Below, one piece after another: positions 1 through 31,373 of a stretch of 64,000 bases of DNA; within the stretch, counting starts at the first letter, position 1, and each line of letters opens with the position of its first letter. The notes under the pieces were generated by a model that was given only the letters and a program-made list of their open reading frames with translations, was not told the origin of the DNA and searched no databases. The position numbers and the translations under genes were made by a program. The stretch comes from Calothrix sp. NIES-4105. GTDB lineage: Bacteria > Cyanobacteriota > Cyanobacteriia > Cyanobacteriales > Nostocaceae. The stretch spans positions 4,849,614 through 4,913,613 of the forward strand of contig NZ_AP018290.1 of NCBI RefSeq assembly GCF_002368415.1. Direction: 5' to 3'.

Positions 1-174
1 CTTACACCGGGGACTATATATTGTTGGACGGCACCAGGGACTGTTGTATACTATCCCTATACCGCCATTGATACTGCCTAGTTCGCTATCGACTAACTCG
101 GTCATAAAGTTTTCGGAATCTTTGAACAATTCAGAACCAGCAGGGTACAGGTTGAAAATCTTAATACTTGCCAT
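1..174 (-). CDS. Double-glycine RiPP precursor peptide, C-terminus cut by window edge
   Basis: The frame is open from an ATG at 174 to the window edge and encodes 58 residues. The leader begins MASIKIFNLYPAGSELF and continues to a double glycine (INGG) at residues 37-40. This is the same leader as in the four peptides at 3994-5261, with the shared pattern I-DLRPxGS(E/D)LFxxSExYMxEL. The visible core after the GG contains two Cys plus Ser and Thr, so it could carry thioether rings. A purine-rich GAAGAGGAAA stretch about 5-14 bases upstream of the ATG is a plausible ribosome site. It lies downstream of the reductase gene on the same strand. A precursor role is inferred from the family resemblance and the C39 exporter nearby. 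Confidence 0.8.
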   Translation of the reverse strand, partial: MASIKIFNLYPAGSELFKDSENFMTELVDSELGSINGGIGIVYNSPWCRPTIYSPRCK

Positions 175-294
175 TTGAAATTTCCTCTTCAGTAAAGTTG
201 TATAGATTGTGATTAAGCTGTGTCAGTTTTTTCCAAACTTTATTTCATGGCTTTGTTCTCCTGGGTGAGTAGTTTATTGTGCTAGCATTGCTCC

Positions 295-1308
295 CTAAAT
301 TCGGTAAAGTAATCGCTCAGATGGAATTTCTTGAACTTTCAGTTTATTGCGATGTAAATCGCCGTAAATGTTTAGATATTCAAGTTCTGTAGGCGTGAGT
401 TTGCCCTGCTGGACTCCAGATATTGCGGCATCAATTTGTTCGCGGCAAGTCAAACCTGTTAAGCAAATATCGACACAGTTCTGTGTTAAAGAGTAGCGGT
501 ATAAATCAGGAACAGTAGGTTGCCAGCACCCTTTTGGTAGACCATCAGGAGCATCCCATAGCGCACCTGTGTGAGAACCTGTTGATTTGAATGTAACAAT
601 GCCTGGTCGAGAAGGGTTTTGTGCCTCAAGCTGATTAAACACATAGCTTTGTGCCGATCGGTGAGCAACATTATGTCTAACCATGACCACATCTAATAGT
701 GGGCTATGCGACCACTGTCGAGCCAAATTGATATCGTGGAACGAAGCACCAATGTAGCGAACAGCACCCATTTTTTTGAGACGCTCGGAAGTGCCAAACA
801 TTCTTTCGATGGTGCGCTGATAAACGCTATTCGAGCCTCTCAAATCGGGGGTAAGCTGCAAGCAATCCTCTAAAGCTTGTCCATCATTTGAACCAATCCA
901 GCCCCAAAACAACACATCAATATAGTCAATCCCCAGTTCGACAAACTGATCTAATAACGCTGCTATTGCCATTTCTGGACTTTTGATATAAGTCACAGTT
1001 GCCAGCACCACTTTCTCGCGCGCCCTTGAGCCACGCCCACACAACTGGCGCAGCGCCCCAGACATCGGACTGTAGAGATAGTGGTGCAGGTCACTGGAGT
1101 AGAAAAAGTAGTTAATTCCCCTGTCGAAGGCGTAAAGGGTATCTTCACTGGAGATACTACCGCCACCACCCAAGCCCAGACAGCTAACCGTTAAATCAGT
1201 CCGCCCCAGTTTGCGGTAAAATGGTAAATCAGATGAAAATTTATCTGCTGGATGGTTGACAACGCTGGCTGAGACAATTGATGGTGGTGCGAGATCGGTT
1301 AGTTTCAT
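295..1308 (-). CDS. Aldo/keto reductase-like protein, probably catalytically degenerate
   Basis: This 337-residue protein has an aldo/keto reductase TIM-barrel layout: LGRTDLTVSCLGLGGG at residues 34-49, then helix and strand segments ending near LNIYGDLHRN. The family's catalytic tetrad is Asp-Tyr-Lys-His. Here the usual NFFDT-like stretch reads NYFFY, the ATK stretch reads ATV (Val105), and the strand ending in the active-site His reads YIDVLFWGW (Gly136). At least the Lys and His, and probably the Asp, appear replaced. The start ATG overlaps the HopA1 gene's stop by 4 bp, so the two are translationally coupled. It may be a tailoring or scaffold protein for the peptides. An active reductase of unusual chemistry cannot be excluded. 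Confidence 0.8.
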   Translation of the reverse strand: MKLTDLAPPSIVSASVVNHPADKFSSDLPFYRKLGRTDLTVSCLGLGGGGSISSEDTLYAFDRGINYFFYSSDLHHYLYSPMSGALRQLCGRGSRAREKVVLATVTYIKSPEMAIAALLDQFVELGIDYIDVLFWGWIGSNDGQALEDCLQLTPDLRGSNSVYQRTIERMFGTSERLKKMGAVRYIGASFHDINLARQWSHSPLLDVVMVRHNVAHRSAQSYVFNQLEAQNPSRPGIVTFKSTGSHTGALWDAPDGLPKGCWQPTVPDLYRYSLTQNCVDICLTGLTCREQIDAAISGVQQGKLTPTELEYLNIYGDLHRNKLKVQEIPSERLLYRI

Positions 1309-2408
1309 AGGTATAACAGTGTGTAGATGTCTTCAGAGTTGGCATTGAGGTAAGCACGCTGCCAGTCAATTCCCAAAACAGAGAAGTGCTGGTGGATACA
1401 TGCCATGCGATACTCGGTTGATTCATCACCTGTAGCCCGTGCTTCGAGCAAGCCATTTGCAACAATTTGGCAGCGGTTCATCCCAAAACTCTCTACAGCA
1501 GCAAATTTGCAATCAGGTTCTTCTGCTAGAGCAAGCCCAGGCGCCAGTAGCTTTGTGAACAAAGGTACTTCCGGGCGAAAATGCGATTCGTTTTCTACAT
1601 AAACACTTCTTAGCACTTGCCGGACTATTTCATAGTTGCTTTTCTCAAAGTAGAGAACCCCTGAGTCATAACGACCGTAGTCAGAAAGGTTATATAGCAC
1701 CTTAAAGGTAAAAGGAATTTTAGTTTCATTGAGTTGCCGTGTTAGACTTTCCATAACGGCAACTGCACCTTCTGGTGTTAAGTTAAAGTAAACTCTCACT
1801 GTTTGAGGATGAGTGTCCGAACCTGCATTGCTGACCGCCATGTAAAACCCATTTTGTACAAAATTCCGAGGCATCCGGATGGCAACTGAGTCGCCTACAG
1901 TGGCGGATTGTTGAGTTTGTTGTAGATGTTTTTCGCGCTCAATATGCAAAGTCAAACCGCCCTTTTTCACGGCCAGACTACCATCACTCTCCTGACGCAG
2001 TATAGACCAATCAGGGTCAAAGTAACCTTCGCCGCTATTACTTTTATGCAGGCGCTCGTAAAACTCCAGGTCTACCCCCAGGAAAGTATTGTTCTCTAGA
2101 TTTTGATGAAGTGCTACGTCGGTTGCACTTGCATCTACTGCTAGGGCAGCTTGCATAGAACCGTTGTAATAGATACCGTAGAGAAAACTTTGCAGTTGTA
2201 AACTTAAATACTTATTTTGAAGATCCAAAGGTGTTCGTTGAAAACGGGTGACTGCCTCAGCAGGAATTTCAAAGGGTTTGTAAGCTGGATGGCTAATACA
2301 AAAATTGGATTGGAGCTGAATATTGTTGGCTATGTCTTGAAGACAATCCAGCACTCTCACTGGCGCCGAAGTTAACAGTTGACTTTGAGGAGAATCCAGT
2401 AATTGCAT
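1305..2408 (-). CDS. HopA1-domain protein (LanY/TvaD-like RiPP enzyme)
   Basis: The 367-residue protein resembles the HopA1 effector-domain family in overall pattern. It has an N-terminal helical part (residues 1-110), a central region with DPDWSILRQ and IRMPRNFVQNGFYMAVSNAG, then VRVYFNLTPEGAVAVMESL and a C-terminal segment with FGMNRC and ACIHQHFSVLGIDW. HopA1-domain proteins pair with phosphotransferase-like proteins in class V lanthipeptide (LanY with LanK) and thioviridamide-type (TvaD with TvaC) pathways, where they act in dehydration of Ser/Thr. Here it sits 25 bp behind a phosphotransferase-like gene and overlaps the reductase gene by 4 bp. Elimination of phosphorylated Ser/Thr is inferred. 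No signal peptide is visible, so it should be cytoplasmic. Confidence 0.75.
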   Translation of the reverse strand: MQLLDSPQSQLLTSAPVRVLDCLQDIANNIQLQSNFCISHPAYKPFEIPAEAVTRFQRTPLDLQNKYLSLQLQSFLYGIYYNGSMQAALAVDASATDVALHQNLENNTFLGVDLEFYERLHKSNSGEGYFDPDWSILRQESDGSLAVKKGGLTLHIEREKHLQQTQQSATVGDSVAIRMPRNFVQNGFYMAVSNAGSDTHPQTVRVYFNLTPEGAVAVMESLTRQLNETKIPFTFKVLYNLSDYGRYDSGVLYFEKSNYEIVRQVLRSVYVENESHFRPEVPLFTKLLAPGLALAEEPDCKFAAVESFGMNRCQIVANGLLEARATGDESTEYRMACIHQHFSVLGIDWQRAYLNANSEDIYTLLYL

Positions 2409-2433
2409 AATATTTGGGTGCGACTAAAAATAC

Positions 2434-3615
2434 TTAAGCAAGAGAACGGTTGAGGCGAGTGAGTTCAGATTCTGCCACGCCAAAAACAGTCGGGATTGAT
2501 TGTTCTGGGCGGCACAACAAAGTTTTGGCAACCTGAAGCATACAAATACCCATATTGCCAAAGGATTTTTGGTATTGAAGCATTGCCTGAATTTGTTGAA
2601 TTAAGGCAAGTCCAGAAAACTGCACAACTCGTATCAAAAAGTCAGGATAGCGCTCGATAATTTCTGGAAAGTTATCAAAATAAGCTTTAGTAAGCGCTGC
2701 AATAGAAGGTTGGAGTACATCAAGCGGTGTCATAGCTAGGCGTAAAGATTCTTCGACATCGATAGACTTACTAACAACCAAGCTACCCAGCCAAATTTGT
2801 AGGTAGCTGGCGATGAGCATTCCTAAATCGAATGCAGGGTCTCCCCAGGCGCCGCGCTCCCAATCAATCAATCGAATAATGCTATTATTTGATTGCTCTA
2901 CTTTAGAGATGTCTTGCTCCCAATCGTTATGCAAGAGGATATTGTTCAGCTTGAGATCATTGTGGGTTAGACAACAGGGTTTGAAAGCAGTAGTAAGTTC
3001 TGTGATCGCTTTTCCTAGACTATCGTAGCGCTGATAGAGAGCAAAGAATTTCAACCCATCTGCGGGAACCTGACCAAAAATTTCTGGGCTAATTCGTTCT
3101 AGTCCACGAGCAAATTTAGGAGCTTGGTCAATGTGGGCGCCCTCAGAATTTTGAGAGAAGAAGTCTTGGTACTGCTGACGATCTAAAGTAGCGCGATGGA
3201 TTGTTGCTAGAGTTGTTCCAATTGAGGTGGCGATCGCAGTCGGGTAAATATTCTCCTTTGTGTAGAAATCAGCTAGATCGCAATAGTCATTGAGGTAGTT
3301 GAAGACAATAATTGAGTGATTTGCATCAAAATGAAGTACTTCAGACATTAATGGGCGAATGTGGTAAAGTTCAGGAGTTTTTACAACGAACTCCTGAATT
3401 TGCCATTCACTTAAAAATTCGCCAGCAGTTTTCCCTTCTCGATCGTGACGCTCCTGTTTAACGAGGAGTTTACGACCGTCTTGCAAGCTCACTAATAGAT
3501 TAAAGTTTTTGGCAACTTTAAGTTCGACTTGGCTCAAATCTTGCTCTTTTTGAGTAAAGATATTTTGTGCTACTAAATAGTTAAAAACGTTTTTTGAGCT
3601 TAAAACAAGTGTCAT
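2434..3615 (-). CDS. Aminoglycoside phosphotransferase-like kinase (LanK/TvaC-like)
   Basis: This is a 393-residue APH-fold kinase. The catalytic loop is THNDLKLNNILL (Asp220, Asn225) and the metal-binding segment is RLIDWERGAWGDPAFDLG (Asp251). The N-lobe carries LLVKQERH with a candidate ATP-binding Lys. The ATG at 3615 was chosen over an upstream in-frame start at 3765 because AAGGAGAG lies just before it and the family pattern begins there. In class V lanthipeptide and thioviridamide-like clusters, a partner of this type phosphorylates Ser/Thr of the precursor before HopA1-assisted elimination. That role is inferred here from the operon with the HopA1 gene and the precursors upstream. A small-molecule kinase is the alternative. 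Confidence 0.8.
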   Translation of the reverse strand: MTLVLSSKNVFNYLVAQNIFTQKEQDLSQVELKVAKNFNLLVSLQDGRKLLVKQERHDREGKTAGEFLSEWQIQEFVVKTPELYHIRPLMSEVLHFDANHSIIVFNYLNDYCDLADFYTKENIYPTAIATSIGTTLATIHRATLDRQQYQDFFSQNSEGAHIDQAPKFARGLERISPEIFGQVPADGLKFFALYQRYDSLGKAITELTTAFKPCCLTHNDLKLNNILLHNDWEQDISKVEQSNNSIIRLIDWERGAWGDPAFDLGMLIASYLQIWLGSLVVSKSIDVEESLRLAMTPLDVLQPSIAALTKAYFDNFPEIIERYPDFLIRVVQFSGLALIQQIQAMLQYQKSFGNMGICMLQVAKTLLCRPEQSIPTVFGVAESELTRLNRSLA

Positions 3616-3910
3616 ATCTCTCCTTCGATTGGAAATTTTTATAAAAAAACCTAGTATAGCTGACGAAAGGCTATCAACGTTTTTCTCCTTATTATGAAAA
3701 GCAGATAAAATCCTGGTACATTGAGATTGTTGATTAAAATGTTTGTTGTTATAACTTATGCACAATTAACGAGAAAGTAGGTGTTCCAAACATATTAGTT
3801 CTTCCAACCCTTCCCTTAGAAAGGGGAGCTTTGCGTAAGTCCTATTATGGTTGATTTCTTCAAGTAATATGTTATACCGTTTGTTTATGAAGATACGCTT
3901 TATCCATAAT

Positions 3911-3938
3911 TGTAGAGATTGACATGTCAATCTCTACA
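3911..3938. repeat. Perfect 28-bp palindrome between precursors and modifying enzymes
   Basis: TGTAGAGATTGACA is followed immediately by its exact reverse complement with no loop. It lies in the 378-bp gap between the precursor at 3994 and the kinase at 3615, in the transcribed direction. It shares the TGTAGAGA half with two other palindromes at 43968-43995 and 57422-57473, so it is probably a dispersed repeat. It could also act as a partial terminator that keeps enzyme expression below precursor expression. The rest of the gap holds a weaker GC-rich hairpin (about 3805-3832) and no gene. Confidence 0.7.
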
Positions 3939-3993
3939 GGATTAATTTGGCGCAACTTTATGCAGAATTGGTATTACTTGATTAACTCAGTTG

Positions 3994-4233
3994 TCAATTG
4001 CGCTTGAACCAGCGTTCGACAGCACCAGCTGCTCCAGCTATGCCCATAGCGCATTGCTGTGACGAACGGGCGCCAGCATATCCAAGTCTAGCAGCAGATA
4101 TAATTAGCGCTGGTGTTAAACCACCGTAAATAGCGTCAAATTCACTTTCACCCAGATCATTCATGTAGCCTTCAGAATCAGAAAATAGTTCAGAACCAGT
4201 AGGACGTAAGTCGGAAATCTTGATAGTAGCCAT
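3994..4233 (-). CDS. Double-glycine RiPP precursor peptide
   Basis: The product is 79 residues. The leader MATIKISDLRPTGSELFSD continues to YMNDL and ends in YGG at residues 36-38. The core of about 41 residues is Ala/Gly-rich, with one Cys, several Ser, one Thr and a basic C-terminus (WFKRN). AAGAGGAAG lies just upstream of the ATG, and the same 5' segment is found before the peptide at 5261. The C39 exporter would cleave after GG. The APH/HopA1 pair downstream could dehydrate Ser/Thr for ring closure with the Cys; this is inferred. Confidence 0.85.
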   Translation of the reverse strand: MATIKISDLRPTGSELFSDSEGYMNDLGESEFDAIYGGLTPALIISAARLGYAGARSSQQCAMGIAGAAGAVERWFKRN

Positions 4234-4424
4234 TGTTTTCTTCCTCTTAGATGAAGTTGCTTTTAATTTGATTAGCTGTATGTTGCTTATAGCGTTTCTT
4301 AGTCAAGTGAGGTACAAATTAAATTAATAAATTTTTTGTGGGGTGGGCATCCTTGCCCTTGTGTACTTCATAAGAACGGGAAACGCTATAATTAGATTTA
4401 CAGTGTTTATCCTTAATACTCTAA

Positions 4425-4637
4425 CTAATTGTTAGGGCGCTTTAGATAACGTGCTACCTCACGTGTTAGGCGGGGACTAACGATCCTAGAAACGACAGCA
4501 GCGCAAACAGGAGAGGTTAGAATTCCACCATTGACACTGATAAGTTCGTTGTCACTCAGTTCGCTCATGTAGCCTTCAGAATCAGAAAATAGTTCAGAAC
4601 CAGTAGGACGCAAGTCGGAAATATTGATAGTAGCCAT
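4425..4637 (-). CDS. Double-glycine RiPP precursor peptide
   Basis: The 70-residue peptide has the shared leader MATINISDLRPTGSELFSDS, then YMSELSDNEL and NGG at residues 36-38. The 32-residue core includes one Cys, Ser and Thr residues and a basic tail ending KRPNN. It lies between two sister precursors on the same strand, and TAAGAGGAAAAATTC precedes the start. The nearly constant leader and wholly different core suggest one set of leader-guided enzymes acting on several products. Confidence 0.85.
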   Translation of the reverse strand: MATINISDLRPTGSELFSDSEGYMSELSDNELISVNGGILTSPVCAAVVSRIVSPRLTREVARYLKRPNN

Positions 4638-4692
4638 TGAATTTTTCCTCTTAGATAAAGCCCACTCTATTAAAACGCTGCTTTGTTACAGG

Positions 4693-4905
4693 TTAGTTAG
4701 CGGCACGTGCAGTAGTAACTACAAGTGAAGCAACAATAGATCCCACAACACTAAAACGAGCTGACCATATTACGCATTTCCAGCTAGAAAAGCCACCCTG
4801 GATAGTACCAATTTCGCCGTCACCCAGTTCATTCATGTAGCCTTCAGAATCAGAAAATAGATCGGAACCAGCAGGACGCAAGTCAAAAATTGCAATAGAA
4901 GCCAT
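4693..4905 (-). CDS. Double-glycine RiPP precursor peptide
   Basis: The 70-residue peptide begins MASIAIFDLRPAGSDLFSDS and ends its leader with QGG at residues 36-38. The core is hydrophobic, with one Cys, many Ser/Val and Thr near the end. The sequence around its stop codon (4669-4699) is repeated almost exactly at the stop of the next peptide (5060-5090), which shows tandem duplication of whole cassettes. The ribosome site is weaker here than for its sisters. Confidence 0.85.
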   Translation of the reverse strand: MASIAIFDLRPAGSDLFSDSEGYMNELGDGEIGTIQGGFSSWKCVIWSARFSVVGSIVASLVVTTARAAN

Positions 4906-5087
4906 ATGGAATCTCTAATTAAATGAGTTTAGTTTTTGAAAGATATACGGTAATAGGCTTTGCAAAAAAGCTAAAACTAATCCCATACACCTTGGAAAAT
5001 AACTGACGGTAGCTTAGATAAAATCAGATTTATCTAATCCATATCCCTACTCCCGCTCCATTAAAACACTGCTTTGTTACAGGTTAT

Positions 5088-5261
5088 TTAGTATGCTGGT
5101 GGTGCAAAGATTACCATTGCAGAAAAAAGGAGTGGTAGTAATCCAAATCCACCATTGATAATGTCAAGTTCACTATCACCCAACTCATTCATGTAACTTT
5201 CAGAATTAGAAAATAGATCTGAACCAGCAGGACGCAAGTCAGAAATATTGATAGTAGCCAT
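5088..5261 (-). CDS. Short double-glycine RiPP precursor peptide
   Basis: This 57-residue peptide is the first of the minus-strand series. The leader MATINISDLRPAGSDLFSNS continues to YMNELGDSELDIINGG (GG at residues 37-38). The 19-residue core FGLLPLLFSAMVIFAPPAY has no Cys and a single Ser, so it cannot form a Cys-based ring like its sisters. It may be a linear, differently modified or decayed product. AAGAGGAAGAAAAC precedes the ATG. The upstream region carries the CATAACT inverted repeat. Confidence 0.8.
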   Translation of the reverse strand: MATINISDLRPAGSDLFSNSESYMNELGDSELDIINGGFGLLPLLFSAMVIFAPPAY

Positions 5262-5370
5262 TGTTTTCTTCCTCTTAGATGAAATTCGATTAGCTATCTA
5301 TTGCTTAATCACATTTCAATCTTCTGAGATTCAATCTATTATTTCAAGGGTTTTAAACTTCTTTTTTATG

Positions 5371-5389
5371 CATAACTACATGAGTTATG
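5371..5389. promoter_or_regulatory. Inverted repeat CATAACT-N5-AGTTATG, copy 1
   Basis: The 19-bp site CATAACTACATGAGTTATG has perfect 7-bp arms. It lies in the 423-bp divergent gap between the precursor peptides and the HTH/exporter genes. The same motif occurs at 22647, 27107 and 30329, each time between divergent genes linked to export. It is probably the operator of a dimeric regulator, but no regulator was identified. Apart from this site and the HLR1-like element, nothing else was recognised in the gap. Confidence 0.65.
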
Positions 5390-5560
5390 TTTTAATTATT
5401 TAAATATTTAATACACCAAAATAGATGTACTTTCGTTTAACAAATCAAAGTGCAGTAACGCATCACTGCTCCGAATGATCTTTTGTTGTAGATGGTGTCG
5501 TTTTTACCCTGTTACAGCAGCAAAGCCTGAAAAGCCGCACTCCTGACCGTTTACGAGATT

Positions 5561-5578
5561 ACTGTAAAGTTTTGTAAC
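5561..5578 (+). promoter_or_regulatory. HLR1-like direct repeat upstream of the exporter operon
   Basis: ACTGTAAAGTTTTGTAAC contains two TGTAA cores 10 bp apart. Its reverse complement fits the cyanobacterial HLR1 pattern bound by RpaB (TTACA repeated with 10-bp spacing) with one deviation. It lies about 110 bp before the HTH gene start. Binding by RpaB is inferred from the pattern only. Confidence 0.4.
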
Positions 5579-5684
5579 GAGTCGTGGAATTTCTGGACTT
5601 TTGACTCAGATAAGTAAGGAGAAAGAAACTTGAAGCATCCGGATTAACTTCCAAAGGGAGCAAATTCGACTAGGAGGAATCGCT

Positions 5685-6245
5685 GTGGAAAATCAGAGTC
5701 TTTACTTAACCCCTTTTCAGCGCAAGCTTCTGCTGAAAACTCTAGAAGCAGATTTACGTCTGGAATATCGCCGTCGCATTGAAATTATGCTGCTGGCAGA
5801 TGCAGGTCAATCTCAGGCACAAATTTGTGAAGCTTTGGGGTGTTCTCAAGAGACTGCAAGGTATTGGATTGCGATTGCACAAGCAGGTAACGCTCACCAT
5901 TGGAGCGCTCGCCCGATGGGGCGCCCCAAGGCTGTAAATGAGCAATATCTCGCACGCTTAAAAGAAATAGCAAGTCATAGTCCGCGTGAGTATGGCTATC
6001 CATTTGAACGCTGGACAGGGCAATGGTTAAGCAAGCATCTGGCAAAAGAACTAGGGATTAAGGTTAGCAGTTGCCATATCAACCGTTTGCTTAAGGAAAT
6101 GGGGCTTTCGACTCGACCAAAAGTCAACATAACTGAGAAATTTTCTTCATATCAACAGAATTCCGGCATTACGATTGGTGATTTATCATCGCGCGTCGAG
6201 CCTAGTTTCTTGTGGCAATTAAGTTTGATGAAAACCAGCAATTAG
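5685..6245 (+). CDS. Helix-turn-helix protein derived from an IS630-type transposase
   Basis: The GTG start at 5685 follows AGGAGG at 5672-5677. The 186-residue protein has an HTH with QSQAQICEALGCSQETARYW (about residues 38-57) and a winged-helix-like second half with WTGQWLSKHLAKELGIKVS (about 113-131). This is the DNA-binding N-terminus of IS630/Tc1-type transposases. The DDE catalytic part is absent and the last 40 residues look unrelated. It ends 13 bp before the exporter gene and was probably co-opted as a regulator of the operon. A truncated transposase remnant is the alternative, but the good ribosome site and tight spacing argue for a working gene. Confidence 0.7.
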   Translation: MENQSLYLTPFQRKLLLKTLEADLRLEYRRRIEIMLLADAGQSQAQICEALGCSQETARYWIAIAQAGNAHHWSARPMGRPKAVNEQYLARLKEIASHSPREYGYPFERWTGQWLSKHLAKELGIKVSSCHINRLLKEMGLSTRPKVNITEKFSSYQQNSGITIGDLSSRVEPSFLWQLSLMKTSN

Positions 6246-6258
6246 TTCTGCGAAAACC

Positions 6259-9200
6259 ATGATTCAGAAGAAATCTGCACCTCCCAAGCAACAGTTAGCT
6301 CAACAGCTTACCCACACTTTAGGACAAACTCTAGAAGAGCAAGAACTTTCTCATTGCCTCCAACAAATTGAAATTCTGGAACCAAATGCAGGCAAAGCGT
6401 TCTGGCAGACAGCAGACGCGACGATTGGCATCTACATCATCCTGGCAGGTAAAGTTAGACTATTAGACCGCGCTGATAACATAATCGCTTCCGTAGGTAC
6501 AGGAGCATCATTTGGGGAGCTAACCCTGTTTCGAGAAGAGCAATTTCAGCCTTACTCTGCCAGAGCTTCTGTAAATCTCAAACTTTGCTATGTATCGGGT
6601 GATTGTTTGCGATCGCTCATCCGCAAGCATCCCTCTATTGGACAGCATCTTCACCGCCAAGCTGTGTTTTGGGATTTACTGCTGTTGTGTCGTAACAGTT
6701 CTCAATTAGCAAACGCTCCTATAGAAAGTGTGTTGCAAACGCTACCACTGTTAGAGCAGCAAAACTTACAAATCGGCAAATTACCAGCCTCTCTACTGAA
6801 AGACCAGCAACTTTGGATACTGCGCCAAGGAGAACTGCTACATTCATCAGAACTCAAACTTACCCCTGGAAATATTTACGTTTGCTCCCAGTTACCCAAA
6901 GAACGTGGTTGGCAGGTGACTCAACCAACCCAACTATATACTCTCAGCCATTCTCATTGGGAAACAGCACTCGCTAACTTGCCACAACTGGCTGAATTAA
7001 TTTCCTCTGGCGCCCTGCGAGTGGGAGAGGGGGAGATAGGGCAGTATAATTCGCAGATTCCCCTAACGCCCCTTGACAAGCAGGACTATGTTCCCCCCTT
7101 ATTAAGGGGGGCTAGGGGGGATCAAGTCTTACCATCCAAGAAAAAAATCAGTAAGGCTTACTTCCCAAACCCGACTGTAAAAATCGGTCATTTGTGGCAA
7201 CGTATCACTAAGCGCTATCCTTACTTTCAACAGCAAAGTGCGGCTGACTGCGGCGCCGCGTGCCTGGTGATGGTTAGTCAATACTGGGGTAAGCACTTTA
7301 GCGTCAACCGACTGCGAGACATTGCAAATGTCGATCGTAATGGTGCATCGCTGCGAGGTTTAGCTGCTGCTGCTGAAAGTATTGGGTTTTCGACTCGACC
7401 AGTAAAAGCCACTATTGACAAAATCGCAGAACAATGCTTACCTGCTATTTTGCATTGGGAAGGCAAACATTACATTGTCGTCTACGAAGTAACAAGCGAC
7501 CGCGTTATCGTTGCCGACCCAGCTATTGGTCAGCGTAACCTAACTTATGCAGAATTAAAAGTGGGTTGGACTGGCTATGCATTATTATTACAACCCACCG
7601 CTTTACTAAAAAAGACCAAAGATACTACTACTCCTTTTTGGCAGTTCTTTGAATTAGCGAAACCTCACTGGTTAGTTTTGCTGGAAGTGTTCATCGCTTC
7701 TGTACTGCTGCAAATTTTTGGACTAATTACACCGCTGTTTACTCAGTTGTTGTTAGACCGAGTAGTTGTGCAGCGTAGTGACCTGACATTAACGGCTGTA
7801 GGTATGGGCTTGCTCATCTTTAGCCTTTTCCGCGTTGCCATGACTGGACTGAGGCAATACCTTCTTGACCATACAGCTAACCGAATCGATTTAGCACTAA
7901 TTGTTGGTTTTATTAACCATACCTTCCGCTTACCCCTGAGCTATTTTGAGTCTCGTTATGTCGGAGACATTATTTCTCGCATTCAAGAAAATACTAAAAT
8001 TCAACGCTTCCTAACGGGTGAAGCACTGTCTATTATTCTCGATTTACTGACAGTGTTTGTTTATTTGGGACTGATGTTTTGGTACAGTTGGAAAATGGCA
8101 CTGCTCGTGTTGGTGATAGTGCCGCCATTTGTATTGCTGGCGCTAATTGCTACACCTTTTTTGCAACGTGTCTCACGCGAGATTTTTGGCGCCCATAACG
8201 AAGAGACTGGGTATCTGATTCAATCCCTAACTGGTATCCGCACAATCAAAGCAATGGCAGTTGAACATTCAGTACGCTGGCATTGGGAAGAATTGTTTGG
8301 TAAGTCGATTAAAAAGACTTTTTCCGGGCAGGTAATTGGCAATACGCTCCAAATTTTTAGCTCGACTATTGAAGCGGTAGTAAACACGGGCTTAATGTGG
8401 TTTGGAGCGTGGCTGGTGATTCAAAATGAACTAACAATTGGGCAATTAGTCGCTTTCAATATGTTGCTGGGCAATGTGATTCATCCCTTTCAGCGACTAA
8501 TTGTGTTGTGGAATGAGTTGCAGGAAGTGATGATTGCGATTGAGCGCATCAACGATGTGATTGACGCTGAACCAGAAGAAGACTTTCAACGCTCCTCTCG
8601 TCAATCTTTACCACCAATTCGTGGTTATGTTAATTTTGATAAAGTCACTTTCCGCTACCATCCAGAAAGTGATGTTAACACGCTGGAAAATATCAGTTTT
8701 GAAGTGCAGCCAGGGCAAATGATAGCGCTGGTGGGACGCAGTGGTTCGGGAAAGACGACCATTTCCAAGCTGATGTTAGGATTGTATCCTCCCACAGAAG
8801 GAAAAATTTTGATTGATGGTTATGATGTCACTAGCTTGTCAATGCAATCGCTGCGTTCCCAAATTGGTGTAGTTGATCAAGATACCTTTCTGTTTGGCAG
8901 TACAATTCGAGAAAACATAAGTGTAGGTCATCCCGAAGCTTCTTTAGAAGAAGTGATAGAAGCAGCGAAACTCGCAGGAGCGCATCAATTTATTAACTCA
9001 CTGCCGATGGGCTATGAAACCCAAATTGGTGAGGGGGGAGGAATGTTGTCTGGAGGACAACGACAACGATTAGCGATCGCGCGCGCTTTACTAGGAAATC
9101 CCCCACTGCTAATTTTAGATGAAGCTACCAGCAGTCTTGACGCTGAATCTGAACGCATTATTCAAACTAACCTCAACAAAATTTTCAAAAATAGGACAAC

Positions 9201-9372
9201 GTTGGTAATAGCTCATCGCCTTTCCACAGTCCGTAATGCTGACAAAATTCTGGTGCTAGATAAAGGCGTGTTAATTGAAAGTGGAACTCACGATCAACTA
9301 ATGTCTAAACGTGGGCAATATTTCTACCTTAATCAACAACAACTTACAGTTACAGGCATTCATTGTGATTAA
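6259..9372 (+). CDS. C39-peptidase ABC exporter with cNMP-binding-like N-terminus
   Basis: The 1037-residue protein cleaves double-glycine leaders and exports the products through the inner membrane. Residues 40-130 resemble a cyclic-nucleotide-binding domain (IYIILAGKVRLLD, GASFGELTLF). A long linker follows. The C39 peptidase covers about 320-450, with Cys331 in QQSAADCGAAC, His404 in EGKHYIVV and Asp420 in VADPAIG. Six membrane segments lie between about 460 and 760. The ATPase has GRSGSGKTT, LSGGQRQRLAIARALL, LLILDEATSSLD and an H-loop IAHRLSTV. The full catalytic set is present. Part of the linker (residues about 268-290) is encoded by a dispersed C/G-rich repeat. It is cotranscribed with the HlyD and PpiC genes. 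Confidence 0.93.
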   Translation: MIQKKSAPPKQQLAQQLTHTLGQTLEEQELSHCLQQIEILEPNAGKAFWQTADATIGIYIILAGKVRLLDRADNIIASVGTGASFGELTLFREEQFQPYSARASVNLKLCYVSGDCLRSLIRKHPSIGQHLHRQAVFWDLLLLCRNSSQLANAPIESVLQTLPLLEQQNLQIGKLPASLLKDQQLWILRQGELLHSSELKLTPGNIYVCSQLPKERGWQVTQPTQLYTLSHSHWETALANLPQLAELISSGALRVGEGEIGQYNSQIPLTPLDKQDYVPPLLRGARGDQVLPSKKKISKAYFPNPTVKIGHLWQRITKRYPYFQQQSAADCGAACLVMVSQYWGKHFSVNRLRDIANVDRNGASLRGLAAAAESIGFSTRPVKATIDKIAEQCLPAILHWEGKHYIVVYEVTSDRVIVADPAIGQRNLTYAELKVGWTGYALLLQPTALLKKTKDTTTPFWQFFELAKPHWLVLLEVFIASVLLQIFGLITPLFTQLLLDRVVVQRSDLTLTAVGMGLLIFSLFRVAMTGLRQYLLDHTANRIDLALIVGFINHTFRLPLSYFESRYVGDIISRIQENTKIQRFLTGEALSIILDLLTVFVYLGLMFWYSWKMALLVLVIVPPFVLLALIATPFLQRVSREIFGAHNEETGYLIQSLTGIRTIKAMAVEHSVRWHWEELFGKSIKKTFSGQVIGNTLQIFSSTIEAVVNTGLMWFGAWLVIQNELTIGQLVAFNMLLGNVIHPFQRLIVLWNELQEVMIAIERINDVIDAEPEEDFQRSSRQSLPPIRGYVNFDKVTFRYHPESDVNTLENISFEVQPGQMIALVGRSGSGKTTISKLMLGLYPPTEGKILIDGYDVTSLSMQSLRSQIGVVDQDTFLFGSTIRENISVGHPEASLEEVIEAAKLAGAHQFINSLPMGYETQIGEGGGMLSGGQRQRLAIARALLGNPPLLILDEATSSLDAESERIIQTNLNKIFKNRTTLVIAHRLSTVRNADKILVLDKGVLIESGTHDQLMSKRGQYFYLNQQQLTVTGIHCD
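7060..7125. repeat. C/G-rich dispersed repeat inside the exporter coding frame
   Basis: CCCCCCTTATTAAGGGGGG, followed by GCTAGGGGGGATC, matches the kind of repeat found outside genes at about 22790-22811 and 23080-23110. Here it is read in frame as YVPPLLRGARGD in the linker before the peptidase domain. The frame is intact, so the insertion appears to be tolerated. Confidence 0.7.
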
Positions 9373-9395
9373 TTGAGAACGATTGCTAAGTAATT

Positions 9396-10961
9396 ATGCC
9401 AACATTCAATACAGAATACCATAGTAATAATGGTAAAAGCCCGATGACCCAAAGTTTATCTAAAGAGGTTCTAGACTTTAACAACCCTAAAATAATCCCG
9501 TCATCTGAACCAAATTCTCCTGAATTGCCTAAGAACGAATGGTCTTCTTTAACTAAAGAAATAATTGATACTTTGCCACGGGTTTGGACGCGCGGGATGC
9601 TGTATTTTATCGTGGGATTTGCTGCTATACTCTTACCTTGGGCAACACTATCTAAAGTTGATGAAACTGGTAGTGCTAGAGGACGGCTTGAACCGAAGGG
9701 AAAGACTTTTAGGTTAGATGCGCCCGTTCCTGGAACAGTTGCTAAAGTTTTAGTAAAAGAAGGTCAACTGGTTAGGAAAAAACAACCTTTAATAGCACTG
9801 GAATCAGAGGAAGTTCGCAATGAGATACAGCAGCAACAAATAAAATTAGAAAGTCAAAAAAATCGACTGGCACAGTTAGAACTTCTTAAAAATCAACTGT
9901 CCCTTGCTCTTAGCGTGCAGCAGCAACAGAACCAAGCTCAAGAATTAGCAAAACTTTCACAAGTAGATCAGGCGCGACAGAATCTAGATGCTAGTAAAAC
10001 TGCCTACAACTTACGAAAAGTAGAGCAATTTACACAGTTCAATCAGGCACAGCAGAACCTGAATACAAGCAAAGCTAGTTACGAACTAGCAGATAATCGT
10101 TATGTCAAGGCAATTAAAGAAGTAGAACGCTATCGTAAACTTTGGCAACAAGGTGTTGTACCAGAAATCAAGATTGTTGAAATGAAAAATTTGGCAGAAG
10201 AAAATCAGAAGTTACAGTTACAGGCTCAATCGGAACTCAAGCAAGGTAAACTCCGTTTACAGGAACAACAAAATCAAAGAAAGAGCGTTGTTCATCAAGC
10301 TCAGTCTGATATTCAGCAAGCTAAACTCCGCTTGGATGAACAGTTACGCAGTTACCAGAGCATTGTTAAATCAGGCAAACTGGCTATGCTTAAAAGTGAA
10401 GAACAACTGAAAGACGTAGAATCACAAATCACAAGTCTCACAGCCGAGAATGCTCAAACAATCACTCAAATTACATCCTTGAAATTTCAGTTAAATCAAC
10501 GAGTGCTACGGGCGCCTGTAAATGGGACACTGTTTAAATTGTCGATTCAACATCCTGGGGCTGTGGTACAACCCAGTCAAATGGTAGCTGAAATTGCACC
10601 CCAAGGTGAGTCCTTTCTGCTTCGGGCACAAATGGCTACTCAACAAAGCGGATCTATTCATGAAGGAATGGCTGTTAAGGTGAAGTTTGATGCCTATCCT
10701 TTTCAAGATTATGGGGTAATAGAAGGTCGCTTAATTCGGATATCAAAAACCTCAAATGTTACGGAAACAGCACAGGGTCAGGTAGCTAATTTTGACTTGG
10801 ATGTTGAGTTGAAACAAAGCTGTATCCAATCTCCAAAGGGATGTATCGCCTTAACTCCCGGTCAAACAGCAACAGCAGAGGTAATTATTCGGCAGCGACG
10901 CATCATTGATTTCATTCTAGATCCGTTTAAGAAGTTGCAAAAAGGAGGTTTGGAACTTTAG
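9396..10961 (+). CDS. HlyD-family membrane fusion protein
   Basis: The 521-residue protein connects the ABC exporter to an outer membrane channel. One membrane segment lies at about 67-85 (GMLYFIVGFAAILLPWATL). A split biotinyl-lipoyl domain follows (APVPGTVAKVLVKEGQLV, RAPVNGTLFKL), separated by a long Gln-rich coiled coil (about 140-350), then the beta-barrel domain. It starts 23 bp after the exporter gene. An internal ATG at 9444 (MTQSL) is an alternative start because neither site has a strong ribosome-binding sequence. A TolC-like partner is encoded at 27525. Confidence 0.9.
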   Translation: MPTFNTEYHSNNGKSPMTQSLSKEVLDFNNPKIIPSSEPNSPELPKNEWSSLTKEIIDTLPRVWTRGMLYFIVGFAAILLPWATLSKVDETGSARGRLEPKGKTFRLDAPVPGTVAKVLVKEGQLVRKKQPLIALESEEVRNEIQQQQIKLESQKNRLAQLELLKNQLSLALSVQQQQNQAQELAKLSQVDQARQNLDASKTAYNLRKVEQFTQFNQAQQNLNTSKASYELADNRYVKAIKEVERYRKLWQQGVVPEIKIVEMKNLAEENQKLQLQAQSELKQGKLRLQEQQNQRKSVVHQAQSDIQQAKLRLDEQLRSYQSIVKSGKLAMLKSEEQLKDVESQITSLTAENAQTITQITSLKFQLNQRVLRAPVNGTLFKLSIQHPGAVVQPSQMVAEIAPQGESFLLRAQMATQQSGSIHEGMAVKVKFDAYPFQDYGVIEGRLIRISKTSNVTETAQGQVANFDLDVELKQSCIQSPKGCIALTPGQTATAEVIIRQRRIIDFILDPFKKLQKGGLEL

Positions 10962-11031
10962 AGTCAAGTCTTCTTCCTTGTTACAATTTCGCAATTTAAC
11001 TCAGATTGATATATTACCAAGGAGTTTTACT

Positions 11032-11769
11032 ATGTTAGAAGTGCTAACTGTTTCTCACGATGAAATTGTTGGTCAAATCAAATTTTCCTGCCAAATTCCT
11101 ACTGTAGTTGAAGGTATTCTTACTCGCAAGATTATCGCACGTGCAGCTGGGGAGGCTGATATTAAAGTAGAGGCAGAGGAACTTCAGCAAGCAGCAGATG
11201 GTTTGCGATTGATGAACAAGCTGACTAGCGCTGATGCTACTTGGTCGTGGCTACAAAAACATAGTCTGTCCCTAGATGAGTTTGAAGAATTGGTTTATAC
11301 CAATGTTGCTTCCTCAAAGTTGGCTCAACATCTGTTTACAGAAAAAGTTGAACCTTTTTTTGTCGAACATCAGCTTAATTATGCTCAGGTTGTGATGTAT
11401 GAAGTAGTATTGGATGACTTTGATTTGGCAATGGAACTTTTTTATGCACTTACTGAAGGTGAGATGAGTTTTCCTGAATTGGCTCATCAATATATTCAAG
11501 ATACAGAACTACGCCGTAAAGGAGGATATCGAGGGATATTGCACCGCGCACAGCTAAGGGCAGAGATTTCTGCTGCTGTCTTTGCGGCAACTCCACCGCA
11601 AATTCTCAAACCAATATTAACATCCATTGGGGCGCACCTGATTTTAGTTGAAGAATTAATTGAGCCACAATTAACCGAGATGCTGCGCTTAAAAATTCTT
11701 TCCGACTTGTTCTCCCAATGGCTACAACAACAAATTGAGCAAGTTGAAATTGTTACAAATTTGGCTTGA
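11032..11769 (+). CDS. PpiC/SurA-like peptidylprolyl isomerase
   Basis: The 245-residue protein has an N-terminal helical SurA-like part and a C-terminal parvulin-type domain with LRRKGGYRGILHRAQLRAEI and HLILVEELI. The ATG at 11032 follows AAGGAG by seven bases and is preferred to the in-frame start at 10978. No signal peptide is visible. Genes of this type follow C39 exporter/HlyD pairs in many cyanobacterial peptide loci, where a folding or presentation role is presumed. It is the last gene of the plus-strand operon. Confidence 0.85.
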   Translation: MLEVLTVSHDEIVGQIKFSCQIPTVVEGILTRKIIARAAGEADIKVEAEELQQAADGLRLMNKLTSADATWSWLQKHSLSLDEFEELVYTNVASSKLAQHLFTEKVEPFFVEHQLNYAQVVMYEVVLDDFDLAMELFYALTEGEMSFPELAHQYIQDTELRRKGGYRGILHRAQLRAEISAAVFAATPPQILKPILTSIGAHLILVEELIEPQLTEMLRLKILSDLFSQWLQQQIEQVEIVTNLA

Positions 11770-11926
11770 GGTAATCTAAGTTCAAACCAATAAGATATGG
11801 ACTATTAGATGAATTTTTGTAAAGAGATCGCGATAATGCATAAAGCTGGCGCCACCAAGAGTGAAAATTATGTGGATGTGCTTTACAACTAAACCAAAAC
11901 TGCTGCAATGCAATCGAGGTGCTTTC

Positions 11927-14900
11927 ATGGGCTGGAAATTAGGGTTCACCTGGGGGCTTTTTATTGGCGCCGCGATATCTTTGAACGCAAATTGTGCTTC
12001 TGCCCAAATTACTCCTGATAGCACTCTGCCCAATAATTCGAGTGTCAAATTAGAGGGAAACACCAGAATTATCGAAAGTGGAACACAAGCCGGAACCAAC
12101 TTGTTTCATAGCTTTGAGGAGTTTTCTGTACCCACTGGCGCCACAGTTTTCTTTAACAATGCAGCAGGCATTGAGAACATTATTAGCCGGGTAACGGGTA
12201 AATCTATTTCTAATATTGATGGTGTACTTAAAGCCAACGCGCGAGCCAACCTATTTCTGCTTAACCCTTCGGGGATTATTTTTGGTACTAATGCTCGGTT
12301 AGACATTGGTGGCTCGTTTGTTGCAAGTACTGCAAGTAGTTTCAAGTTCAGTAATGGTAGCGAATTTAGTGCCATCAATCCTCAAGCACCACCATTACTG
12401 ACAATTAATGTAACACCAGGGTTACAGTATGGATCGAGTCAACCTGGGGCTACAATTACCAATACGGGAAATTTAGCAGCAAAGCAAGACCTAACGCTAG
12501 TAGCTGATAAACTTGACTTGCAGGGGCAGCTACAAGCAGGAAAAGATTTGACACTGCAAGCGCAGGATACAGTGCGAGTACGTGACAGTGTAGAAACACC
12601 ATTTCTCGCTACTACAGGTGGTAATCTTACTATTCAAGGTAATCGCTTAATTGATATCCTGGCGCTGAATCATCCAACTATGGCGCCGTTTGTGAGTGGG
12701 GGTAATCTGAGCTTAATCAGTGATGGGATTATTTCTCTTGATGCTCACTTTGCCAGCGGTGGTAGTTTTTCGATACAAAGTGTATCAGGGGGACTGGCAA
12801 ACTTTGTAAGCAAATATGACCCGATAATTAGTGCGACTGGAGATGTCGATGTTGCTGCTAACTATACAGGAGCATCGCTTTTAGTCGAAACTCAGGGAAA
12901 TATTCGCTTACTCGGCGATATCAACATTACCGAACCGGATACTAGTGCGTTGCCAGCAGGAGCAGATACTGCAACCCTCAGCACGAGTCCAGCATTAATT
13001 CTCCGTTCAGGGCAGAGCGCTCTGACTTATGGAGGTATTAACTCTGACTTAGTACCCGCCGATGGCACTGGAACTGTGCCTGCTGGAATTACGTTGGATG
13101 GAGCGGTTACTTTACAGCCGTTTAATGGACCTGGGGGGATAGTTAGCTTGTCGGCAGCATCGGGGAATGTGAGTACCCAAGGAATTACTACCAATGGAGG
13201 TGTGATTAATATTAACAGTGCTGGAGCAATCGCCACCAATGGACAAATCCTGGACGCTAGGAATGACATCAACAATGGAGGCGAGATTAAGCTAATTGCC
13301 AACGGCAGCATTAACACTGGGAATTTGTTCTCTTTCTCGTCGGTAAATGGAGGCGAGATTAGCCTTTTAACTACCAATGGCAGTATTAACACTGGGCTTT
13401 TGTACTCTTTCTCGTCCTCTAATTCTGGTTCTGGGGGTCAGGGGGGTGCAATTAGCCTTGAAGCCTCCAACGGCAGCATTTCCACAGGCAGTTTGAAATC
13501 TGACTCGCATTCTGCTGGTCCTGGGGGTCAGGGAGGTGCAATTAGCCTTGAAGCCTTCAACGGCAGCATTTCCATAGACGGCAGTTTGGTATCTGACTCT
13601 TCCTCTAATTCTGGTCCTGGGGGTCAGGCGGGCGCGATTAGCCTTAATGCTACCAATGGCAGCATTTCCATAGACGGCGGTTTATTCTCTTACTCGTCCT
13701 CTTATTTTGACCTTGGGGAAAATGGGGGCGCAATTAGCCTTAATGCCACCAACGGTAACATTACCACAGGTAATTTGGGGTCTGCCTCACTCTCTAATTC
13801 TGGCGCAGCGGGAAATGGGGGAGTGATTAGCCTTTTGGCAACCAATGGCAGCATTTCTACAGGCAAGTTGTCCTCTGGGTCAGAGTCTTATTCTGGCACA
13901 TCGGCAAATGGGGGTGCGATTAGTCTTAAAGCCACCTACGGTAACATTACCACAGGCAATTTGGACTCTCACTCTCAGTCGTCCTCTTCTGACCTTGCGG
14001 GAAATGGGGGTGCAATTAGCCTTGAAGCCACCAACGGTAACATTACCACAGGCAATTTAGACTCTCACTCGTTCTCTTTTGACCTTGCGGGAAATGGGGG
14101 CGCAATTAACCTTGAAGCCACTAACGGTAATATTAACACAGGCAATTTGGACTCTCACTCGTCCTCTTTTAACCTTGCGGGAAATGGGGGCGCAATTAGC
14201 CTTAAAGCCGACAGCGGTAACATTACCACTGGCTTTCTGAACTCTTACTCGTTCTCTGTTTCTGGCTTTGGGGGAAATGGGGGCGCAATTAGTCTGGGCA
14301 CTTACAACGGTAATATTACCACAGACAATTTGAGTTCTTACTCATCCTCTTCTGAGGGCACAGCGGGAAATGGGGGTGTGATTAATCTTAAAGCCACCAA
14401 TGGCAACATTACCACTGGCAATTTGTTCTCTTCCTCGTTCTCTGATTCTGGCACAGGGAGAAATGGAGGCGCGATTAGCCTCGAAGCCACCAACACCATC
14501 AAGCCTGGTTCAATTAACTCTATAGGGGTGCTGGGTTCAGGAAATATTACCATTAATAGTCAGGCAGCTTTTACTTTAGACAATCGCCTCATCTCTAGCG
14601 ATACCTTTGGCTCTGGCAAGGGGGGAGATATTCAGATTAGCGCTCCTTCCATTTTCCTTAAAGCTGGCGCACAAGTATCCGCGTCCACCCATAGCAGTGG
14701 ACAGGGCGGGAATATCACTCTTAGAGCCTCCGACAAAGTAGAACTGAATGAAGCAATTACAGATCGCTTTTTCTTGTTTGCTCCAACTGGTCTAGCGGGA
14801 ATTCCACCCGATACGTTCCTCGGTGGTTTTATTCCCACTGGTGACACTAGGCAAAGACCTGCCAATGGCACCCTATTTCCTAGCGGCGTGTTTACTCAGA

Positions 14901-20800: not shown

Positions 20801-21223
20801 TTTGGCATTAATGGTACTGTCGAAGTAAATACCCCCGATATCGATCCCAATCGCGGATTAATTAACTTACTAGTCGTACCAGTTGATACTGATGTAGCGC
20901 AAGTATGTAGTGCAGGTGGAACTACTGCACAAAGTAGATTTACTATTACTGGACGTGGTGGCTTACCTTCTAATCCAAGTGAGAGCCTTAGTACTGATGC
21001 AGTGCAGGTAGATTTGGTGACACTTAACCCGAAATTTAAGCAACCCTCTAATACAATTTCCACAAGTGCTATTAGCCCTGCACCAATTCCTATTGTCGAA
21101 GCTACTAGATGGGTGAAAAATACCAGAGGAGAAATAGTGTTAACTGCTACACCTACAAGAGCGCAGCATAGTTCCTGGCAGAAAACAGATGATTGTCGCG
21201 TACTCAATCAACGACAAAAATGA
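17870..21223 (+). CDS. Two-partner-secretion exoprotein 2
   Basis: The 1117-residue protein begins MLKMTRYKRFW with a signal region (LGSLLAFGGVIVSTNCALAQ). The TPS domain has NLFHSFQEFNI, GVENILSRVTGGN and [16 protein letters not shown]. Residues about 340-730 are repeats of 60-75 residues with GNGGNIQIKAGSL and GQGNAGSISVQVE. The C-terminal module is the same as in the other two exoproteins ([30 protein letters not shown]). The first 200 bp of the gene and its upstream region are nearly identical to exoprotein 3, so they are duplicates. A surface or adhesin role is inferred. Confidence 0.9.
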   Translation: MLKMTRYKRFWRPKSGLGSLLAFGGVIVSTNCALAQQSNIVPDNTLGALSSVVTPNVDINGIKSEQISGGASRGINLFHSFQEFNIKDGHGAYFTNPTGVENILSRVTGGNASSILGKLGVLGNANLFLINPSGIIFGQNASLDVRGSFVGTTANAIGLSNGDIFSANPGEPLPTGLLNVNPNAFFFNQIAAQPITVNSRRYIGNRFGSPDPFNAFNSYQGLKVPDSKSLLLLGGNVSLDGGILQALGGRVELGGVIGLGTVGLVVDSSNLSLSFPDVVQRADVSLTNMAVVDVIAGGGGSIAVNARNLDILGVSKLLAGIGKGNGSVDSQAGDITLNATGAITIGQSDYSSTIENNVNSNAIGNGGNINIQAGSLSMTDNAVLSTSTAGQGNAGSISVQVKGAVDLIDNSYIDSSASSFAMGNGGNIQIKAGSLLMDRARLSASTTRTQTRGMPSGQGNGGSISVQVEGEVDLIHSSIDSIVGFGVVGNGGNIQIMAESLSMTDEAIVSTRIEGQGNAGNISVQVEDEVSLTTSYINSFVNFLGKNFSAVGKGGDIQIKAGSLTMNADPRLRTMSGASISASTLGTGNAGSISMQVEDKVSLSGNSFISSDVGYNALGNGGDINIKARSLSMTDGTGLTSRTEGKGNAGDIFVQVENEVSLKNNSIDSNVSTPSAVGDAGNIQIKARSILMTDGAKLNTSTQGQGDAGNIEINADDSVSISGFNPEVKLLSSGLFTSTEERAIGQGGDISITTGILRLSDGAVLNARTRNDASGGNITVKTNTLDLIGGGQILTSTFSSGSAGNITVNASDHVNISGSDRTYATRLEEFGEARVDPDGLNSGLFARVRGNATANAGKVEVNAGSIRLDKQGTITTETTSGEGGDIILNVRDILLLRNNSSITATAGTAQQGGKGGNITINTPNGFIVARPTENSDITANAYTGKGGRVGITAFGIYGTQFREKENPQTNDITASSTFGINGTVEVNTPDIDPNRGLINLLVVPVDTDVAQVCSAGGTTAQSRFTITGRGGLPSNPSESLSTDAVQVDLVTLNPKFKQPSNTISTSAISPAPIPIVEATRWVKNTRGEIVLTATPTRAQHSSWQKTDDCRVLNQRQK

Positions 21224-31295: not shown

Positions 31296-31373
31296 TTAGG
31301 CGCCTATCTCTGAGAATTAGCAGTGACTAATAGTGCAGCGTCATCGTTGTTAAGTAACTGCTACAGGGGGGCA

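Follow-up and report, generated by a model that had tools for sequence, protein, structure and literature searches.

A RiPP cluster of Calothrix sp. NIES-4105 with a LanK/LanY-type dehydratase pair and an aldo/keto reductase-like protein proposed to reduce dehydrated residues

We analysed a window of 64,000 nt, the whole stretch of DNA under study, from the genome of the cyanobacterium Calothrix sp. NIES-4105 (12.0 Mb, 8 contigs); it begins at G000:C1:4849614, inside a gene cluster for ribosomally synthesized and post-translationally modified peptides (RiPPs). The reading that we prefer, and hold to be fairly probable, is that of a class V-type (LanK/LanY) cluster with a tailoring enzyme of the aldo/keto reductase (AKR) fold, in which precursors would be dehydrated, reduced in part to D-residues by the AKR-like protein, closed into small rings where they have Cys, and exported by a peptidase C39 exporter. 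To judge from its gene company in many genomes, the AKR-like protein probably converts dehydrated residues to mirror-image amino acids, and from this context we propose it as a fourth type of LanJ enzyme, unrelated to the others. The observations behind this reading are the gene content, conserved catalytic residues, the association of the genes, a ring motif in the precursors and the lack of a LANC_like match in the genome. Published work is cited by PubMed Central (PMC) accession.

The AKR-like protein and its gene company

An earlier note on this DNA mentioned an aldo/keto-like third protein in passing. The protein is present, and it deserved more attention, being the feature by which this branch differs from plain HopA1 clusters. 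Related loci were collected by a HopA1-first scan, which gave at least 584 stretches, of which 330 were confirmed and the best 80 kept as named loci, and by AKR-first searches, which found the protein in 9 of 386 genomes of the phylum (E at most 1e-60), 61 of 217 genomes of the Nostocaceae-type family (1e-40) and 41 of 388 genomes of the order (1e-30); these three sets overlap. The HopA1 domain is far commoner than the AKR, being nearly universal in the family (214/217 genomes at 1e-20). From the AKR-first matches 72 loci were taken, with some fragments, duplicates and 4-kb stretches left out. All 72 encode a Ser/Thr dehydratase, which is a HopA1 protein in 64 and a class II LanM in 8, and none has neither. 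Merging of near-identical loci reduced 115 AKR loci to 89, namely 80 with HopA1 and LanK, 8 with LanM and no HopA1, and the flank of the window's own cluster, whose HopA1 gene lies in the window. One of the 80 also has a LanM. In one AKR/HopA1 cluster a LanM gene (L013:13436-16678) lies 2.3 kb from the AKR gene, and its product has kept the zinc ligands.

HopA1, LanK, both types of PpiC protein and the C39 peptidase occur all together in 54 of the 89 merged loci, the rest being partial and often situated at contig ends; given this frequency of the full set, the gene set is not a matter of chance. In 69 of the 80 loci the AKR gene shares the strand of the HopA1 gene and lies within 50 bp of it. 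In L162 the two form a single frame of 709 amino acids, although one indel where the genes usually share a short overlap could produce such a frame. The second PpiC protein is tied to the AKR among HopA1 loci: with repeats left unmerged, both were found in 101 loci, neither in 41, the AKR alone in 11 and the second PpiC alone in none. Nine of these 11 are of the LanM type, and one is the window itself, with its second PpiC gene beyond the edge.

The PF00248 match of the protein (26.8 bits) is barely above the cut-off of 24. The predicted structure, a model of moderate confidence, has an AKR barrel fold, and all 50 listed matches in a structural search with this model were AKRs. Alignment indicates that the classical catalytic tetrad (Asp-Tyr-Lys-His) is at least partly replaced; its tyrosine may be kept as Tyr79, a residue conserved in 86 of 86 AKRs from these loci. 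Equally invariant (86/86) are His191, Arg211, Asn213, His216 and Lys241. The partly replaced tetrad and this distinct set of invariant polar residues are what distinguish the window protein from aldo/keto reductases such as Kv-beta and L-galactose dehydrogenase.

Dehydration and the precursor cores

The kinase matches the aminoglycoside phosphotransferase (APH) family (PF01636, 1.7e-09), and the HND-x4-N and DWE motifs that the earlier note had pointed out are visible. Against the NCBIfam LxmK model (NF038156) it scores 82.5 bits, under the cut-off of 315 bits; by this comparison it is a homologue of LxmK and belongs to another equivalog. Its partner falls squarely within HopA1 (PF17914, 1.6e-61, 207.6 bits, cut-off 22.7), and the two are of the class V LanK/LanY kind, as had been supposed. 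In the reconstituted class V pair CaoK/CaoY, Ser/Thr are phosphorylated and the phosphate is then eliminated; elimination by CaoY is lost or nearly lost in the K219A and R187A variants and weakened in R229Q, and Y236 is conserved (PMC9486802). In the window protein Lys236, Arg246 and Tyr253 are spaced as K219, R229 and Y236 are in CaoY, with which the comparison is by spacing alone, and they align with a Lys, an Arg and a Tyr of the solved lyase 9dk1, a distant match. Among 107 aligned HopA1 proteins from AKR loci, 105 retain the catalytic Lys, and the remaining two are gapped fragments. Dehydration of Ser/Thr by the window kinase and HopA1 lyase is, on this homology, near certain.

The genome has a third kinase/HopA1 pair, of another kind (L006, 8904-11238), next to genes that from their sequence look thioesterase-like and acyl-CoA-ligase-like, and no leader-type precursor lies nearby. 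In this locus and the best matches to its HopA1 protein (L246-L257) the lyase Lys is replaced by Tyr, His or Gln in 12 of 12 cases, own copy included, and a kinase was seen in 11 of the 12. Might this be a kinase pair without a working lyase?

The five window precursors share one leader with a GG end, and four of the five cores have Cys together with Ser/Thr, just as the earlier note described; with one of them as query (E up to 0.1) the genome returned 11 matches, five in the window cluster and six in a second cluster (L005) of similar organisation. In L005 the AKR lies at 8005-9024, the HopA1 protein at 9035-10147, the kinase at 10163-11356 and one of the precursors at 13319-13513. Cys is not a general theme of such precursors: none of the six L005 cores has it, and 51 of 157 non-redundant AKR-locus cores do. 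The latter come from 427 leader hits, of which 20 were dropped (14 for lack of a GG-type end, 1 as open and 5 as short), leaving 407 precursors that gave these 157 cores and another 52 belonging to HopA1 loci that lack an AKR. Cys is present in 51/157 AKR cores vs 29/52 without AKR (p 0.005), and cores are exclusively Cys-free in 45 of 80 AKR/HopA1 loci vs 12 of 38 loci without AKR, a comparison weakened by the nature of the second set, which comes from one HopA1-first scan, is smaller and unmerged, and may include loci that end before an AKR gene.

The 67 Cys of the AKR cores have Ser/Thr at position -3 in 46 cases, at -4 in 42 and at either in 52, whereas 500 shuffles of the same cores gave a mean of 20 and a maximum of 32 for the last count. 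In the window precursors Ser stands at -3 of all five Cys, and Ser/Thr also at -4 of three. The motif also occurs outside AKR loci: the 63 Cys of the cores without AKR have Ser/Thr at -3 in 22 cases, at -4 in 27 and at either in 39. An [ST]xxC pattern fits small thioether rings in the product, for which the TPxC ring of nisin offers a comparison; in the window precursor at 4425-4637 the ring would be TSPVC.

Adjacent Ser/Thr are avoided in the AKR cores (123 vs 245 expected, z -10) and not in those without AKR (46 vs 44). Alternation of Ser/Thr with other residues was considered as a general mark of AKR cores and rejected: excesses at lag 4 and lag 6 stood out in a first sample (z 6.1 and 6.8), but the enlarged, more strictly merged set shows no enrichment at lag 2 (229 vs 237.8 expected) and an enrichment at lag 5 (z 6.4). 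Repeated N-T-x-N-A-N-T-like motifs in the cores of L036, L042 and L076 may be the source of the lag-5 signal. Runs of at least five alternating Ser/Thr occur in 6 of the 157 merged AKR cores (500 shuffles: mean 0.6, maximum 4) and in 0 of the 52 others. Ten distinct cores, from L039, L050/L194 and L083/L126 only, have seven or more; in L039, L050 and L083 from 7 to 13 successive Ser/Thr alternate strictly with other residues, hydrophobic for the most part (examples are RAIESVTVTISVTLSVTYSWSWTW of L050 and ARATVTITLTYTVTLTRTYSYTWTRTRTF of L083), and four strictly alternating cores end in alternating Trp. In L017, L056 and L075 two core types (for example SPIVIWGVAI... and IIPIIITTIVAF...) alternate along the array, which looks like a two-peptide bacteriocin arrangement.

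LanM loci as a natural control

The eight AKR loci with LanM (11 LanMs) were compared with 20 LanM loci without AKR (21 LanMs) that turned up when the same family was searched for LanM; the controls were hand-picked from the listed matches, one per genome, and lean to high-scoring ones. Five LanMs scanned by Pfam contain DUF4135 and LANC_like, and the one LanM-locus precursor tested is of the NHLP type (TIGR03793, 90 bits, cut-off 50.9). The LanC zinc ligands, scored at their presumed positions, are lost in 8 of 11 AKR-linked LanMs, that of L152 among them, vs 3 of 21 controls (Fisher p 0.002, uncorrected for kinship). Recognised cores are Cys-free in 35/39 vs 7/32 cases, four controls without a recognised core (L226, L227, L236 and L243) being out of the count. 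The zinc ligands are intact in L146 and L147, AKR-linked LanM loci whose cores do have Cys.

Among the three zinc-less controls, L242 encodes a PoyD-type epimerase (TIGR04517, 573 bits, cut-off 325) and L244 a dehydrogenase of the medium-chain dehydrogenase/reductase (MDR) type (PF08240 over and PF00107 under the cut-off, no NCBIfam model over it), which could be of the LanJA kind; the cores of both are Cys-free. In L240 the one neighbour scanned is a ThcOx-type nitroreductase. Two of the three thus carry other candidate makers of D-residues, and the AKR therefore seems to occupy the place of such enzymes; loss of the LanM cyclase site may be a mark of D-residue pathways. The AKR loci contain no relative of the L244 dehydrogenase (phmmer, E up to 1e-8).

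The cluster, the proposed pathway and its alternatives

The cluster extends 0.9 kb beyond the left window edge, into the flank L004. On the - strand, four precursor genes (5261-3994) are followed by the kinase, the HopA1/LanY lyase, the AKR-like protein, the fifth precursor and a second PpiC protein, and the HopA1 and AKR genes overlap by 4 bp. The open frame of the kinase reaches 3765, and paralogues favour a start at 3615. Diverging on the + strand, a helix-turn-helix gene comes first, then the exporter, HlyD and PpiC genes; Pfam and NCBIfam matches agree with the earlier description of the last three.

Features of the window cluster and its left flank
Feature	Position	Strand	Basis
Second PpiC protein, beyond left edge	L004:12721-13536 = G000:C1:4848720-4849535	-	
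Precursor 5, 5' part of gene, core IGIVYNSPWCRPTIYSPRCKPSLPRSIATTLPKAV	1..174, off left edge	-	Leader HMM; own-genome precursor search
Precursor 5 entire, 73 aa	L004:13567-13788		Same gene as window 1..174
AKR-like protein, proposed reductase of dehydroalanine (Dha) and dehydrobutyrine (Dhb)	295..1308	-	PF00248, AKR fold, gene context, conservation
HopA1-domain LanY-type phospho-Ser/Thr lyase, 367 residues in the earlier note	1305..2408	-	PF17914 1.6e-61, conservation, distant match to 9dk1
LanK-type APH-fold kinase	2434..3615	-	Profile matches; start 3615 backed by paralogues
Precursor, core LTPALIISAARLGYAGARSSQQCAMGIAGAAGAVERWFKRN	3994..4233	-	Own-genome precursor search
Precursor, core ILTSPVCAAVVSRIVSPRLTREVARYLKRPNN	4425..4637	-	Own-genome precursor search
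Precursor, core FSSWKCVIWSARFSVVGSIVASLVVTTARAAN	4693..4905	-	Own-genome precursor search
Precursor, Cys-free core FGLLPLLFSAMVIFAPPAY	5088..5261	-	Own-genome precursor search
Helix-turn-helix protein, putative regulator	5685..6245	+	Pfam HTH_32/HTH_28; same position in sister locus L005
Peptidase C39-ABC exporter with N-terminal cNMP-binding domain	6259..9372	+	Pfam, NCBIfam
HlyD-family membrane fusion protein	9396..10961	+	Pfam, NCBIfam
PpiC-type protein 1	10978..11769	+	TIGR04500-like, 68.5 bits, under 180-bit cut-off

Elsewhere in the window, three long proteins with two-partner secretion (TPS) domains are encoded at 11861-16633, 17870-21223 and 31323-35267, the first adjoining the exporter operon, and CHAT-domain proteins, one of them with CHASE2, at 41159-43516 and 58778-60592. 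A CHAT-like protein and a two-partner transporter seem, from their sequences, to flank the second cluster L005.

Cyanobacterial clusters of this kind are already in print, and the suggestion that a multi-precursor version might be new did not stand. Eyles et al. 2021 (PMC8153245) mined 570 'Family 1A' peptides from 183 cyanobacterial HopA1 clusters; these peptides have double-glycine leaders and variable cores, and a cluster typically encodes several of them. Liang et al. 2022 (PMC9486802) described a cyanobacterial 'type-B' LanA group in a set chosen to contain Cys, and Kloosterman et al. 2020 (PMC7794033) mentioned distant cyanobacterial homologues. The window locus fits the Family 1A/type-B description (cyanobacteria, HopA1 with a phosphotransferase, several precursors, a conserved double-glycine leader, variable cores), as matched to the published descriptions and not to their alignments. 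In their available portions neither PMC8153245 nor PMC9486802 names an aldo/keto-like protein, a second PpiC or a [ST][ST]xxC motif, and in the main text of PMC8153245 'aldo' occurs once, in retro-aldol. Searches of open-access PMC papers, which did not extend to subscription papers and supplements, turned up no account linking an AKR to lanthipeptide or HopA1 clusters. The interest of the locus rests on the AKR.

With the class V lanthipeptides (cacaoidin, lexapeptide, pristinin A3, rosins), some of which acquire D-residues by Dha reduction through the F420H2-dependent LanJC, the cluster shares the LanK and LanY dehydratase pair; it differs in its double-glycine leader, C39 exporter and AKR-fold protein. 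Among the cluster open reading frames (ORFs) scanned there is no LanD, LanX or F420-type reductase, nor, as the earlier note had it, a cysteine decarboxylase or a second APH-fold (LanX-like) gene. Assignment to class Va (cacaoidin type) was rejected for want of LanD/LanX among the 10 proteins scanned, the helix-turn-helix protein and the second PpiC protein, the rest of the genome not being searched for them; assignment to the thioamitides was rejected since no YcaO-TfuA domain was seen among the cluster ORFs scanned. The LanJ enzymes comprise zinc/NADPH dehydrogenases (LanJA), flavin enzymes (LanJB) and F420H2 enzymes (LanJC) (PMC11519912, PMC10373908). The window enzyme would share their reaction (Dha/Dhb to D-Ala/D-2-aminobutyrate (D-Abu)) and place in the pathway, and would differ from these kinds, as they are described, in its AKR fold. 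The same AKR family recurs in eight loci of the proteusin/class II kind (NHLP leaders, LanM), where dehydratase and leader are unrelated to those of the window and 8 of the 11 LanMs lack the LanC zinc ligands.

By homology to CaoK/CaoY, the pathway would begin with phosphorylation of Ser/Thr in several precursors, recognised by the kinase through their one common leader, and with removal of the phosphate by the HopA1 lyase to give Dha/Dhb. The AKR-like protein would then add hydride to some of these, yielding D-Ala/D-Abu. Where Cys is present, a Dha/Dhb three or four residues upstream would close a small (methyl)lanthionine ring with no help from LanC; Cys-free cores would give linear peptides in which D-residues are scattered. 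The exporter would finally cleave after GG and secrete the peptides. A lanthionine cyclase acting in trans was sought as a LANC_like match in the whole genome and none was found, in a search whose control was positive in 1 of 14 genomes.

Several observations weigh against this pathway. The C-terminal half of the AKR model, where NADPH would bind, is of low confidence (mean predicted local distance difference test, pLDDT, 65.4), and by alignment the tetrad Asp is Phe69 and the Lys is Val105, while extension of the alignment would put the His within W135-G136-W137. In the lyase, R187, essential in CaoY, has no secure counterpart, the tentative match to Arg181 being unsure because position 181 varies among HopA1 proteins. 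In the LanM comparison, L149 encodes both an intact and a zinc-less LanM although its five recognised cores are all Cys-free, and the LanM of the HopA1-type AKR locus L013, outside the count of 11, is intact. PoyD-type epimerases occur also in L148, L150 and (cut off) L149, so the Cys-free cores there could have another cause. Finally, seven of the eight LanM-linked AKRs fall into a single clade (support 0.60), and that of L177 stands apart; the AKR-LanM pairings thus go back to few separate events, and the Fisher values make the evidence look stronger than it is.

The partial loss of the tetrad would suit an AKR without redox chemistry, serving as a cyclase that guides Cys addition, as a scaffold of the LanK/LanY complex or as a site-selecting factor. 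The tight coupling to HopA1, with its one fusion, would also suit a member of a complex, and re-use of a fold has a precedent in the kinase-fold LanX, a class V cyclase (PMC12291118). We nevertheless think such a role rather doubtful: a thioether cyclase would lack a substrate in the 45 of 80 AKR/HopA1 loci whose recognised cores are all Cys-free and for the 35 of 39 Cys-free cores of AKR-linked LanM loci, and a scaffold specific to LanK/LanY is at odds with the pairing of the AKR with two unrelated dehydratases. The simplest product, an ordinary class V-type lanthipeptide with Dha/Dhb and lanthionines only, the AKR being incidental or acting elsewhere, agrees with the intact LanK/LanY and with the Cys of four of the five window precursors, each with its Ser at -3; it is made improbable by the dehydratase in 72/72 AKR-first loci, by the close, same-strand spacing of AKR and HopA1 in 69/80 and by the common set of invariant residues.

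Most improbable, in our judgement, is reduction of an N-terminal 2-oxo group to a hydroxyl, as carried out by the NAD(P)H-dependent reductases ElxO and TaaRed (PMC8153245). Such pathways do need a reductase, ketone reduction suits the AKR fold, and 29 of 157 AKR cores start with Ser/Thr, but the other 128 do not, the window five beginning with I, L, I, F and F; moreover, leader removal by the C39 exporter would presumably come after the action of a cytoplasmic enzyme, and the loss of tetrad residues tells against this chemistry as well. The preferred reading, reduction of Dha/Dhb to D-residues, can be taken further, and we offer the extension tentatively, as possible but not probable. The tetrad-altered AKR would be a dehydroamino-acid reductase of a fourth class that evolved independently and serves two unrelated dehydratases, LanK/LanY and LanMs largely without the cyclase zinc site, to make linear, thioether-free peptides rich in D-residues; the alternating relatives (L039, L050 and L083) would then, if dehydrated and reduced in full, yield alternating L,D-peptides, a ribosomal counterpart, made with no epimerase, of the gramicidin-type beta-helical channel. 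The gramicidin-like idea is kept to these few relatives because alternation is not general in AKR cores.

Family 1A is a large mined family whose products were left to future work (PMC8153245). If the AKR is a dehydro-residue reductase, one could predict the chemistry of its entire branch, and the three LanJ kinds would be joined by a new type of enzyme that forms D-residues. Ser/Thr codons would then allow D-Ala/D-Abu to be genetically encoded in peptides, and the pairing of lanthionine-type machinery with Cys-free precursors and zinc-less LanMs would be explained.

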